Origin: Parafrankia sp. EUN1f
GTDB taxonomy: Bacteria > Actinomycetota > Actinomycetes > Frankiales > Frankiaceae
Reading direction: 5' to 3'
Length of the DNA stretch: 33,029 nucleotides
NCBI RefSeq assembly: GCF_000177675.1
Contig: NZ_ADGX01000093.1
Coordinates: 1 to 33,029 of the forward strand
The notes below the pieces were generated by a model. It was not told the origin of the DNA. It did not search any database and worked only from the letters and a program-made list of their open reading frames with translations. The first letter of the stretch is position 1; every line of letters begins with the position of its first letter. The position numbers were made by a program, and so were the translations under genes. Of this stretch, positions 1 to 3,427 are shown one piece after another.

Positions 1-2
1 GG

Positions 3-86
3 CACGGTCGTGGTAGTTCGGCGTACCGCTACGCGGTCCCTCCCAACCGGACCCGGGTGGATGTGTGGTGGGCGTCGGGTGACTGA
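3..86 (+). CDS. Possible C-terminal end of a gene cut by the window edge
   Basis: One plus-strand frame is open from the left edge to a TGA at 84-86 and gives about 27 residues ending in VDVWWASGD. The composition is protein-like (Tyr, Trp, Pro and Asp mixed), but it is too short to assign. If real, it is the end of a gene lying to the left and is co-directional with the Gly/Trp peptide gene that starts 191 bases further on. Another frame is also open across the edge, so the call is weak. Confidence 0.25.
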   Translation, partial: HGRGSSAYRYAVPPNRTRVDVWWASGD

Positions 87-277
87 ACCGTCACTGAACC
101 GGGGCGGGGCACGATGAGGCTCGGACGGGTGCTCCCATCCGCCTGACTCCGATGGGCCGGGCGGGCGGACGGATTGTCCGGCAGGCGCCGGACGAGGCGC
201 GCTCGGAGCGCCGGACCAAATCGGCGGCCGGATCAACAGGAGCCGGACGTACGAGACTCGGACGGAAGGGGTAGGTC

Positions 278-469
278 ATGAAGGCCAGGTACGAAGCGCC
301 CGCGATTGCATCTCAGGGCTCGTTCCGGGACGTCACCCGGGGAGTCTTCGTGATCGTCGGCGGCGGCGGTGGATGGGGCTGGGGCCGCAGCTGGGGTTGG
401 GGCTGGGGCGGTGGCTGGGGCTGGGGCTGGGGTGGCGGCTGGGGCTGGGGCGGTGGCTGGGGCTGGTGA
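278..469 (+). CDS. Putative RiPP precursor: lasso-type leader with a Gly/Trp-repeat core
   Basis: This 63-residue peptide starts at ATG 278 behind a purine-rich ribosome site (GGAAGGGG, about 264-271). Residues 5-22 match the spacing of lasso-peptide leaders: Tyr5, Pro8, Gly14, Phe16, Thr20, Gly22 (Y-x2-P-x5-G-x-F-x3-T-x-G). Residues 28-63 are 22 Gly, 12 Trp, one Arg and one Ser, in a roughly 8-residue WGWGWGGG pattern. The tail has no Asp or Glu, so it cannot form the isopeptide ring of a true lasso peptide, and no Cys or Lys. No RRE protein, leader peptidase or asparagine-synthetase-like cyclase is in the window. The next gene on the strand is a flavin hydroxylase (734-2146). The leader call rests on motif spacing; the product and its maturation are unknown. 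A non-RiPP Gly/Trp-rich structural peptide is the alternative. Confidence 0.65.
   Translation: MKARYEAPAIASQGSFRDVTRGVFVIVGGGGGWGWGRSWGWGWGGGWGWGWGGGWGWGGGWGW
392..466 (+). repeat. Imperfect 24-bp tandem repeat encoding the WG core
   Basis: Two near-identical 24-bp units (392-415, 416-439), an 18-bp shortened unit (440-457) and a partial unit (458-466) encode WGWGWGGG-type blocks. The units differ mainly at third positions (GGC/GGT/GGG and the preceding base), so the peptide is kept while the DNA varies. Unit number could change by slippage without breaking the frame. Confidence 0.8.
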
Positions 470-663
470 GCCCGGCGAATCCGCAACCGTGACCGCCACT
501 CGCCCGAGGAAGTGAGTGAGTCCCGGGGCCACTGAGCCCCGCGGCGGGTTCCAGCCTGGGTAACCCGCTCCTGGTCGTGCAGGTCGGTGGACCTTCCTCC
601 GAGCTGCACGACCCTTGTCGTTCCGGGGCTGTCGTCGCGTTCCGGGCAGTCGTCGTTCCAGGA

Positions 664-721
664 CAGCCGCGGGAAGTCGTCCACGTCTAGGGCAGCCGCG
701 GGAAGTCGTCCACGTCTAGGG
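664..721 (+). repeat. Perfect 29-bp tandem repeat, two copies
   Basis: Two identical 29-bp units (664-692 and 693-721) lie head to tail in the leader of the flavin hydroxylase gene, and the first three bases of a third unit (cag) follow. Because 29 is not a multiple of 3, the repeat is unlikely to be coding. This supports a hydroxylase start at GTG 734 over an upstream start at 587. The rest of the 470-733 gap shows no other gene. Confidence 0.85.
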
Positions 722-733
722 CAGGGGGACCGT

Positions 734-2146
734 GTGAGGATCGTCTGTGTGGGTGGGGGGCCGGCCGGGCTGTACTTCGCGATCTCCGCGAAACGCCGCG
801 ACGCCGGCCACGAGATCACCGTCATCGACCGGGACCCGCCGGGCGCCACCTACGGCTGGGGGGTCGTCTACTGGGACAACCTGCTCGACGTCCTGTTCCG
901 CAACGACCCGGTGAGCGCGCGGGAGATCCGCGCGGCGTCGACCCTGTGGCAGGAGCAGGACATCAGCGTGGGGCCCGGCCGGGTCGCGCACTTCGCCGGG
1001 TACGGGTTCAGCGTGCAGCGCTCGGCCCTGCTCGACATCCTCACCCGGCGGGCGATCGAGCTGGGGATCCGTGTCGAGCACGGCCGTGACATCACCGACC
1101 TGGCCGATCTGGCGGCGCTGGGCTGGCGCGGGGGAGCCGGCACGCGACCCGAGGACGAGCCGCGTTCCACCCTTGATCTCGTCGTCGGCGCGGACGGTGC
1201 GAACAGCCGGGTGCGATCGATGTTCGACGGCCAGTTCGGCACCTCGACGGACGTCGGGGCGAACCAGTACATCTGGCTTGGTACGCGCCGACACTTCGAC
1301 CGGTTCACGTTCGCGTTCGAACGGACCCCGTCCGGCTGGGTGTGGTTCCACGCCTACCCCTCCGGCGCGGACGTGAGCACCTGCATCGTCGAGTGCTCGC
1401 CACAGACCTGGGAACGGCTCGGGTTCGCCATCTCGTCGGGCCCGGAGATGCTGCGGACCCTGAGCGACATCTTCGCGGTGCCGCTCGCCGGGCACGGCCT
1501 GACCGACAACCCGCGCCGGCCGGCACGCTGGCAGCGCTTCACGCAGGTCAGGAACCGGACCTGGTCGGTGGGCAACACGGTGCTCCTGGGCGATGCCGCG
1601 CATACGACGCATTTCACCCTCGGCTCGGGCACGACGCTGGCGATGATCGACGGGGTCATGCTCGCGCAGATGCTCCACGAGCACGGCGAGGTCGCCCCGG
1701 CGCTCGCGCAGTTCGACCACGAGGGCCACGCGGCCCTCGAACCGCTGCAGGCCAGGGCGCGGACCAGCATGTCCTGGTTCGAACGGGTGGACGCGCTGCT
1801 CGACCGGGAGGCGGTGGGTGCGACCGGTGCCGACCCGGTCGAGTTCGCGTACGCCATGGCGACCCGCCAGAGCGACCAGCCGCCGTGGAGCTACCAGGCG
1901 CATCGGGCGATGCAGGTCCCGGCGCTGCGACGGGCCCGCCGCGCCCTCGACACGTCAATGCGGTGGTACCTGGCCCGCCGCCGGGGTGAGCCGGCCCGCC
2001 TTACCGCGGGCCCCTTCGGCCCGGCCGCCACCCGCGCCGACTCCGCTACCCGTGCGGACTCCGCTACCCGTGCGGACTCCGACACCCGCGCCGAGGCCCA
2101 CGCCGCCGCCCACACGAACAACGACGCCCAGGTCCGCGTCCCGTAG
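734..2146 (+). CDS. FAD-dependent aromatic hydroxylase (salicylyl-/anthraniloyl-CoA monooxygenase N-domain-like)
   Basis: This class A flavoprotein monooxygenase of about 470 residues probably hydroxylates an aromatic substrate using NAD(P)H and oxygen. The N-terminus has the Rossmann dinucleotide motif GGGPAG (residues 7-12). A middle motif GADGANSRVR and the FAD-ribityl motif LLGDAAHTTHF lie in family order. The segment around YGWGVVYWDN resembles the N-terminal half of salicylyl-CoA 5-hydroxylase and anthraniloyl-CoA monooxygenase, and also VioD, but the second (old-yellow-enzyme) half of the CoA enzymes is absent. GTG 734 is chosen because AGGGGG sits at 723-728 and the 29-bp repeat upstream is out of frame. 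The last 40 or so residues (TRADSA repeats) are low complexity and antisense to a HAF-repeat gene, so the tail is probably not part of the enzyme fold. The substrate is unknown. Confidence 0.8.
   Translation: MRIVCVGGGPAGLYFAISAKRRDAGHEITVIDRDPPGATYGWGVVYWDNLLDVLFRNDPVSAREIRAASTLWQEQDISVGPGRVAHFAGYGFSVQRSALLDILTRRAIELGIRVEHGRDITDLADLAALGWRGGAGTRPEDEPRSTLDLVVGADGANSRVRSMFDGQFGTSTDVGANQYIWLGTRRHFDRFTFAFERTPSGWVWFHAYPSGADVSTCIVECSPQTWERLGFAISSGPEMLRTLSDIFAVPLAGHGLTDNPRRPARWQRFTQVRNRTWSVGNTVLLGDAAHTTHFTLGSGTTLAMIDGVMLAQMLHEHGEVAPALAQFDHEGHAALEPLQARARTSMSWFERVDALLDREAVGATGADPVEFAYAMATRQSDQPPWSYQAHRAMQVPALRRARRALDTSMRWYLARRRGEPARLTAGPFGPAATRADSATRADSATRADSDTRAEAHAAAHTNNDAQVRVP
2039..2092 (+). repeat. 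18-bp tandem repeat in the hydroxylase 3' end
   Basis: Two perfect 18-bp units (2039-2056 and 2057-2074) and a third diverged unit (2075-2092) encode the ADSATR-type tail of the plus-strand hydroxylase. The opposite strand reads as RVAESA repeats in the continuation of the HAF-repeat gene. Confidence 0.8.
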
Positions 2147-2540
2147 TTCTCCACCAGCACCTGGCCGCGGTCGTTCAGGCCGATCGCCGCGCTGTCGCGG
2201 AAGCCGGGTGCCACGCCGAGATCGATGATCAGCCCGTCCTCCCAGAGGACCGCGTGGCCGTGCCAGTCGGGGGTGTCGCTCATGCCGGGCTCCCGTTGTC
2301 GGCCCAGGCCAGCCCGACGATCAGGCCGTCGTTGTTCACCAGGCTGGCGTTGCCGGCGGAGAGGCCGGCGGGTAGCGCCAGCGCCACCAGCTCGAAGTGA
2401 TCCCCGAAGTAACTCGCGCCCGGATCCGCCCGCGCCACGGCGAGCGGATCGAGCGCGCTGAGGGAACAGAACGCGGCGAGCACGCCGAACCCCGTCGTCC
2501 GCAGGCGCGTGCGCGCCCGCGCTCTTGTCGTTACCTCCAC
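2111..2540 (-). pseudogene. Secreted HAF-repeat protein gene, frameshifted and truncated
   Basis: GTG 2540 has a good ribosome site (GGAGGA, 2545-2550). The product starts with an Arg-rich, then hydrophobic signal-peptide-like segment ending near VARADP. It continues into a HAF-type repeat (NNDGLIVGLAW) and stops at a TGA at 2280-2282. The next frame, from an overlapping ATG at 2283, continues the same repeat family: HGHAVLWEDGLIIDLG, then LNDRGQVLVENYG. One missing base near 2283-2290, in a GGG/CCC-rich stretch, would join the two. Recognisable similarity ends near 2111, where the region becomes antisense to the hydroxylase tail, so the C-terminus appears lost. HAF repeats are named for a His-Ala-Phe motif in extracellular proteins; their function is not known. 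A translationally coupled gene pair is possible but less likely, because one repeat is split by the break. Confidence 0.6.
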
Positions 2541-2563
2541 CAGATCCTCCCCGAATATGGATG

Positions 2564-2578
2564 ACTACTATCAGTAGT
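2564..2578. promoter_or_regulatory. Small dyad in the divergent region before the response regulator
   Basis: ACTAC and GTAGT arms with a 5-base spacer sit between the divergent HAF-repeat gene (start 2540) and the response regulator (start 2717), followed on the plus strand by a short T run. It could be an operator or a weak hairpin. The surrounding 2541-2716 region shows no other gene. Confidence 0.25.
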
Positions 2579-2716
2579 TTTTCTCGGATGGTAGGTGGTG
2601 CCGGGACCGGTGCCGTCCAGTGCCGTCCAGCGCCGGCTGTCGGATGGGTGACGGCCGCCGGTCGGGCCGCCAACCTGGCATGCTGTGGCGAACTGGCACG
2701 TGACGGGAGGTGATGG

Positions 2717-3427
<711 letters not shown>

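Follow-up and report, generated by a model that had tools for sequence, protein, structure and literature searches.

A Gly/Trp-repeat peptide with a lasso-type leader in Parafrankia and its pairing with a VioD-like flavin monooxygenase in several actinomycete families

The main result of this analysis is that a short peptide consisting largely of Gly and Trp is paired with a tryptophan-hydroxylase-like flavin enzyme in several actinomycete families. The pair was found in the window, by which we mean the whole stretch of 33,029 nucleotides from the soil bacterium Parafrankia sp. EUN1f that was analysed. We propose that the two genes form a RiPP-like system in which a VioD-like flavin monooxygenase (FMO) would oxidise the Trp residues of a Gly/Trp-repeat peptide with an exchangeable N-terminus and in which, in Frankiaceae, a lasso-type RRE/B2 cassette would act on the peptide in trans without closing a ring; we give this reading a probability of roughly 0.6.

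RESULTS

The precursor peptide and its leader

The peptide gene (278-469, forward strand) encodes 63 residues. A preliminary description, made from the sequence of the window, had reported a leader with the lasso-type spacing Y-x2-P-x5-G-x-F-x3-T-x-G and a core in which 22 of 36 residues are Gly and 12 are Trp, with no Asp, Glu, Cys or Lys. Both observations hold: in the ORF translation the motif starts at residue 5, residues 28-63 consist of 22 Gly, 12 Trp, one Arg and one Ser, and the peptide matches the NCBIfam model NF033521 (lasso_leader_L3) with 24.8 bits (cut-off 19, E = 1.5e-5). The score against Pfam DUF5972 was 22.4 bits, slightly below the cut-off of 22.6. From the NF033521 match, the alignment and the pS/pN values we delimit a leader of residues 1-21 (278-340, forward strand; Y5, P8, G14, F16 and T20), followed by a predicted core of 42 residues (341-466, forward strand; 23 Gly, 12 Trp, no Asp, Glu, Cys or Lys), the DNA of which is a GGC/TGG-type repeat. 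The B2 peptidase presumably cuts after residue 21, which would place the conserved Thr (T20) at position -2.

The preliminary description had made its reading depend on homologues in other genomes that conserve the leader positions. Such homologues exist: Y5, P8, G14, F16 and T20 were invariant in 27 aligned sequences, and the leader was kept while the length and repeat pattern of the core differed. Within the genus Parafrankia the leader is under purifying selection (pooled pS 0.53 and pN 0.11 from 15 non-independent pairs among six genomes). Furthermore, a six-frame translation amounting to 2.44 million residues contained the motif Y..P.....G.F...T 23 times, in every case apparently in a short leader-bearing precursor, although the 100 loci sampled had been picked for RRE/peptidase or monooxygenase genes, so that precursors were expected among them.

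In its 9.35 Mb genome, the window corresponds to contig C304. The end of another contig (C289) overlaps the first 439 bases of the window with 99.1% identity; we rejected it as a second copy and took it to be the same gene at an assembly break, apparently with small indels in the repeat. The break falls inside the repeat (window 1-469 and the end of C289). Contigs also end inside or near such genes at eight other loci, so the Gly/Trp peptide genes are probably undercounted. Between the peptide gene and the FMO gene lies a 29-bp tandem repeat (643-724, forward strand; 2.2 to 2.9 copies), which may be incidental.

The peptide and FMO genes in Frankiaceae

A protein search with the peptide matched 24 of 58 genomes, its own included (E <= 0.01; five weak matches that lacked the leader motif were dropped). 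With all sources combined, 25 of the 35 family genomes have a leader-bearing Gly/Trp peptide (G020 shows a contig-end remnant only), the distinction between Gly/Trp type and lasso precursor being made by eye. The cores vary in length and may hold His, Tyr, Phe, Ser or Arg, and they are always rich in Gly and Trp; at four loci two peptides lie side by side.

FMO was the next gene at 12 of the 21 Frankiaceae precursor loci. At two of the same 21 (L049 and L052) the contig breaks off next to the peptide, and one (L053) is the window's own locus. Six have other neighbours (MFS-domain proteins, one P450 and other genes), and the contig of one of these (L046) stops 72 bases past the peptide. At L051, a Parafrankia locus, the Gly/Trp precursor occurs together with a P450 and an MFS transporter (~7.3-10.5 kb), and at L044-L046, from Frankia-group genomes, with an MFS-domain protein. 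The window also encodes an OmpR-type response regulator (2717-3427, forward strand), with low confidence a possible regulator of the system; members of its protein cluster lie close to the precursor at 12 of the 21 loci.

Counted from the enzyme, 23 of the 35 family genomes have a close FMO homologue, one each (G017 has an extra one, 39% identical). In 18 of these 23 a lasso-leader peptide lies within 1.5 kb of the FMO, and in three more the contig breaks inside the peptide: the contigs of L238 and L248 start with its last codons, and L247, judged from the length of its contig and its position there, is the same contig end as L189, which likewise starts with them. The remaining two loci, L250 and L252, showed no such peptide within 1.5 kb of the FMO. 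In genomes G011 and G028 the FMO has no such peptide beside it; G028 (L252) carries one at the end of another contig. Over the 35 genomes, 22 have both genes, one has the FMO only, three have the peptide only and nine have neither (Fisher p = 2.8e-5, kinship ignored).

The pair recurs in other actinomycete families

We searched GTDB genomes with an alignment of the Frankiaceae FMOs only and kept the best 80 of 545 relatives. A Gly/Trp-repeat ORF (at least 15 of 30 residues G or W, with at least four W) lay within 2.5 kb of the FMO at 61 of the 80 loci, 55 of them with at least 20 of 30 residues G or W. Fifty-two of these 61 peptides are encoded directly upstream of the FMO on the same strand, with a median gap of 115 nt. 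Outside Frankiaceae the pair occurs at 52 of 68 loci, as obtained by subtracting the 12 Frankiaceae loci, nine of them positive. As a background, the same loci beyond 2.5 kb contained one such ORF in 355,847 bases, itself another precursor, and 21 B-cassette loci contained six in 397,079 bases, four of which were lasso precursors. None of 29 more distant FMO relatives (18 fused, 11 stand-alone) had a Gly/Trp ORF within 1.5 kb, some flanks being shorter than this at contig ends. These data strongly support a pairing of the Gly/Trp peptide with a VioD-like FMO in several actinomycete families. The preliminary description had suggested asking whether flavin hydroxylase genes co-occur with leader-bearing (GW)n peptides in actinomycete genomes; the FMO gene does so in Frankiaceae, and elsewhere it stands beside Gly/Trp peptides with other N-termini.

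In three of the 19 negative loci (L184, L189 and L223) the contig begins with the last part of the repeat, one locus has a Gly-rich remnant (L199) and one a Trp-poor version (L224). In three others (L183, L186 and L211) the contig starts inside the exporter gene, and L221 ends 69 bases past the enzyme, its sister loci having the peptide further downstream. At 10 of the 80 loci there was no Gly/Trp ORF and no obvious reason for this. In a sample of the phylum, 44 of 396 genomes gave an enzyme match at E <= 1e-90; among the 30 loci listed from this sample the pair was found only at the window's own, and it is thus patchy in the phylum.

Three Streptomyces loci (L217, L218 and L224) encode, beside the same enzyme, related peptides with little Trp and much Gly, His, Tyr and Asp, which suggests that the core may drift in composition. 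Among the top matches in the open-access literature, judged by title and the start of the abstract, we recognised no description of these peptides or of the pair.

The N-terminus of the peptide differs between lineages

The peptides of Nocardia and Streptomyces begin with an apparent Sec signal (by eye), and those of Pseudonocardiales and Saccharopolyspora with a short M-[KRQ]-I-K-x-x-F start (MKIKEIF-like). An ABC exporter gene stands beside many of the latter and overlaps the start of the FMO gene by 4 nt in seven loci; in four Saccharopolyspora loci the peptide is encoded downstream of the enzyme on the opposite strand. The leader is not the defining feature of the system, as the Gly/Trp core and the flavin enzyme recur with different N-termini. 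The overall interpretation in the preliminary description, a RiPP class that borrows lasso-type leader recognition, needs to be amended in this respect and is otherwise partly supported.

We built an enzyme tree from the 80 loci, the window and one outgroup (three further outgroups, L254-L256, are absent from it; among its N-terminus class labels, L166 stands as short but is Sec-like, and those of L208 and L229 are doubtful). The 13 Frankiaceae rows formed one clade (99/95), which grouped with Saccharopolyspora with moderate support (90/85), adjoining the Pseudonocardiales enzymes. A single acquisition of the lasso leader is compatible with this tree, although it is not proven by it.

In the Nocardia nova group (L168, L169, L179 and L182) the Sec-type Gly/Trp peptide and its FMO are followed, ~2 kb downstream, by a canonical-looking lasso locus with a YEKP-leader precursor (~8.0-10.5 kb). 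Its large ORF is an Asn_synthase protein in L169, the one tested, and a small RRE-like ORF (by eye) is present in three of the four loci. A leader swap could arise in such an arrangement.

The FMO resembles VioD, and its likely substrate

The proposed Trp-modifying partner is a group A flavin monooxygenase of 470 aa (734-2146, forward strand) that resembles VioD and salicylyl-CoA 5-hydroxylase. Its closest solved relative is VioD by sequence, by profile (E = 1.1e-59) and by predicted fold (TM 0.85 on target and 0.67 on query, 25% identity; pLDDT 80); kynurenine 3-monooxygenase and other FMOs share this fold. The signature motifs of group A FMOs are GxGxxG, DG and GD, and in 34 FMO sequences G7, G9, D154-G155 and G286-D287 were invariant and G12 nearly so. 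The enzyme falls short of the curated cut-offs, with 159 bits against 620 for the NCBIfam VioD equivalog and 324 bits against 1078 for the salicylyl-CoA 5-hydroxylase/oxidoreductase profile, the latter over the N-terminal half only. By these profiles VioD is the more distant of the two and the N-terminal half of salicylyl-CoA 5-hydroxylase the closer one, so that an aromatic acyl-CoA is a conceivable substrate. Fifty records of plasmid-borne relatives were found, each below 60% identity; of 10 that were listed, four are annotated as salicylyl-CoA 5-hydroxylase/oxidoreductase and four are without annotation.

Could the two genes be a functional pair in which the FMO acts on a small aromatic compound (e.g. 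an acyl-CoA), while the peptide, under common control, is secreted unmodified as a structural, adhesive or binding component? The top curated score, that of salicylyl-CoA 5-hydroxylase, and the occurrence of some Gly/Trp peptides without an FMO would agree with this. We nevertheless consider it unlikely, as the FMO stands beside Gly/Trp peptides with three types of N-terminus in several families, the 18 fused salicylyl-CoA-type relatives have no Gly/Trp peptide within 1.5 kb, and exporter and FMO genes overlap. An unmodified fibre-like product, which the preliminary description had allowed for, is less likely because a conserved enzyme adjoins the peptide gene. Its other suggestion, a modification on Trp, can now be tied to a specific candidate enzyme, the FMO, with oxidation as a plausible chemistry.

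It is also improbable, in our view, that oxidation of Trp leads beyond simple hydroxylation, through cross-linking, pyrroloindoline formation or ring opening, to a cross-linked aromatic polymer. Many Trp residues at even spacing and the shared fold of kynurenine 3-monooxygenase and other FMOs would suit such an outcome. However, no second enzyme recurs across the lineages: the largest recurring neighbour cluster is the ABC exporter (15 of the 80 loci), most clusters being unannotated.

A lasso-type RRE/B2 cassette elsewhere in the genome

The genome has a single PqqD-type RRE and a single Transglut_core3 B2 peptidase above the cut-off, adjacent at the end of contig C365; a second PF13471 match was below the cut-off (19.8 versus 26 bits). 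The gene at 278-469 encodes the only above-cut-off lasso leader in this genome. In the other five Parafrankia genomes the gene order is BTAD regulator, RRE, B2 and ABC exporter, and the cassette contig of the window's genome ends before the exporter. The RRE of a sister species (L090) matched NF033530 with 109.5 bits (cut-off 70). The Cys and His of B2 peptidases are catalytic, and both residues of the related proteins are conserved in the Parafrankia B2.

In the six Parafrankia genomes the cassette contains no cyclase and no recognisable lasso precursor. All eight lasso-leader matches in these genomes (E <= 0.01) were Gly/Trp peptides, two of them being the same gene, so no other substrate with that leader is visible for the cassette. 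By this argument from absence the Gly/Trp peptide would be its substrate. The window's genome has just two PF00733 matches (345 and 296 bits), which we judged by score to be asparagine synthetases. Moreover, in four of the six genomes, this one included, all Asn_synthase matches scored 293-345 bits, and none fell within the 105-128 bits spanned by the lasso cyclases of this analysis.

Three candidate cyclases were rejected. An extra Asn_synthase-like match in G002 lies on C116, and the sole RRE and B2 of that genome lie on C1. The extra low-scoring Asn_synthase of G004 belongs to a distinct lasso locus, which encodes an RRE, a B2 and a cyclase of its own; the precursor candidate there did not match the leader model. 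The third, a protein of 753-917 aa encoded upstream of the Parafrankia cassette, gave no Pfam or NCBIfam match for its L090 member; by eye, we take it to resemble a membrane PI-PLC-like protein.

The corresponding cassette of Pseudofrankia and Frankia generally comes with a cyclase and its own precursor, which has Asp at core position 8 (for example T-x-G-R-W-G-W-G-R-D in L093, where the cyclase is nearest to the NCBIfam albusnodin/ikarugamycin type, with 223 bits and thus below the cut-off of 300). A called cyclase is also missing from the cassette of L097, within these two genera, and from that of L102, in a third one. Nine loci of Frankia and Pseudofrankia encode lasso precursors whose ring is rich in Gly and Trp (mostly GRWGWG[RH]D) and whose tails are Gly-rich; these are possible ancestors of the Gly/Trp peptides.

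On genomic grounds, the presence of one RRE and one B2 without a lasso-cyclase-like Asn_synthase supports the earlier idea that lasso-type leader recognition has been borrowed. The co-occurrence of the RRE and peptidase genes, which was to be looked for, was found; B2 is present in 31 of the 35 family genomes, and since nearly the whole family thus has the RRE/B2 cassette, its co-occurrence with the peptide is weak evidence.

Can the product be a lasso peptide after all, its ring being closed by a cyclase in trans or through an unusual acceptor? A leader above the NF033521 cut-off and an RRE and B2 encoded in trans speak for this, but residues 22-63 contain no Asp or Glu, and four of the six Parafrankia genomes show only matches in the range of asparagine synthetases. 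We regard it as very improbable. The usual lasso chemistry would not apply, as the preliminary description had held, with neither an acceptor acid in the core nor a cyclase found in the genome; for these two reasons we do not class the product as a lasso peptide, although it appears to use lasso-type leader logic.

A Trp-sensing translational attenuator of the trp-leader kind, which a Trp-rich ORF immediately 5' of an oxidase gene might suggest, can practically be dismissed as the control of the downstream monooxygenase, since the leader is conserved at the protein level, other lineages have signal-like N-termini, the peptide has tens of residues with many Trp, a promoter and terminator scan of 100-900 found nothing (no terminator-like hairpin), Rfam gave no match in window 1-3000 and the peptide is encoded downstream on the other strand in the four Saccharopolyspora loci.

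DISCUSSION

A proposed RiPP-like system

The peptide gene combines a conserved leader and a variable core, and a candidate modifying enzyme is encoded alongside, as in RiPP systems. In the reading that we prefer, the FMO would hydroxylate or otherwise oxidise the indoles of many core Trp residues, probably in the cytoplasm before export, and the N-terminus would be a swappable module that sets recognition, trimming and export. In Frankiaceae, leader binding would fall to the RRE/B2 cassette, which lies at another site of the genome together with genes for an ABC exporter and a BTAD-type regulator; B2 would cut after residue 21, and the core would be exported as a linear product. No ring would be closed, because the core lacks an acceptor acid and the Parafrankia cassette lacks a cyclase. 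The route in Nocardia and Streptomyces would lead through the Sec-like signal, and that in Pseudonocardiales through the MKIKEIF-like segment and, in most cases, a dedicated ABC exporter encoded nearby. The RiPP-like reading is weakened by the 10 unexplained loci among the 80 with an FMO, the 11 stand-alone relatives without a peptide and the six of 21 peptides without an FMO, as well as by the presence of the pair at a single one, the window's own, of the 30 phylum-sample loci listed.

As a guess, the product could be an extracellular peptide bearing hydroxyindoles, with adhesive, pigment-like, or redox- or metal-active properties. We tentatively go one step further, to a proposal that we hold at somewhat less than even odds: the peptides may be an undescribed ribosomal class found in several actinomycete families, a hydroxyindole polymer made by a dedicated VioD-like enzyme that hydroxylates the many indoles of the core, in which the leader was exchanged (Sec, ABC-coupled or lasso-RRE) around an ancestral pair of core and enzyme, the cyclase-less Parafrankia cassette only trimming and exporting the peptide. 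Such a polymer, if real, would be a Trp analogue of the DOPA proteins, and the system would be a RiPP-like class with multi-site oxidation of peptidyl-Trp. It would also be a natural leader-exchange experiment, with one core type and one enzyme behind three unrelated N-terminal modules, and a case of a lasso RRE/peptidase cassette that has been retained with neither cyclase nor lasso precursor. Three small genes would suffice to test whether RREs act in trans on unlinked substrates outside the lasso class. The general logic of RiPPs is already known; this would be a new class within them if the chemistry were shown.

Comparison with known systems

With lasso peptides the system shares the YxxPxI/L...GxF...T leader, the NF033521 match and a lasso-type RRE and B2 in the genome. 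It differs from them in that there is no acceptor acid, no cyclase was found in its own genome, the precursor is not linked to the RRE/B2 cassette and the core is a Gly/Trp repeat. VioD, an indole hydroxylase, is the best match to the FMO in both sequence and fold among solved structures, but the two are only 25% identical and the FMO scores far under the NCBIfam VioD cut-off. The substrate of VioD is a small molecule.

Other related systems have been described, and LPP, canucin and ChlH among them offer precedents for the proposed mechanism. The LPP family of Bacillota consists of RiPPs outside the lasso class, the lasso-like YxxP leader of which is recognised by an RRE; it involves a SpI-like peptidase and phosphorylation, whereas here a B2-type cassette of the actinobacterial kind and a flavin enzyme are encoded (PMC13381572). 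Canucin is described as a linear lasso precursor that is hydroxylated with the help of B1 (review PMC9266682). RES-701-2 and RES-701-4, peptides from a lasso pathway, carry 7-hydroxy-Trp at the C-terminus; there the hydroxylation concerns one C-terminal Trp, and ResE, for which a role as the hydroxylase has been proposed, is a hypothetical protein (PMC7280977). Finally, the flavin halogenase ChlH modifies two Trp residues of the chlorolassin precursor whether the leader is present or absent (PMC12518702); ChlH is a halogenase acting on a lasso core with acids, whereas the enzyme described here is a VioD-like monooxygenase encoded beside a repeat core.
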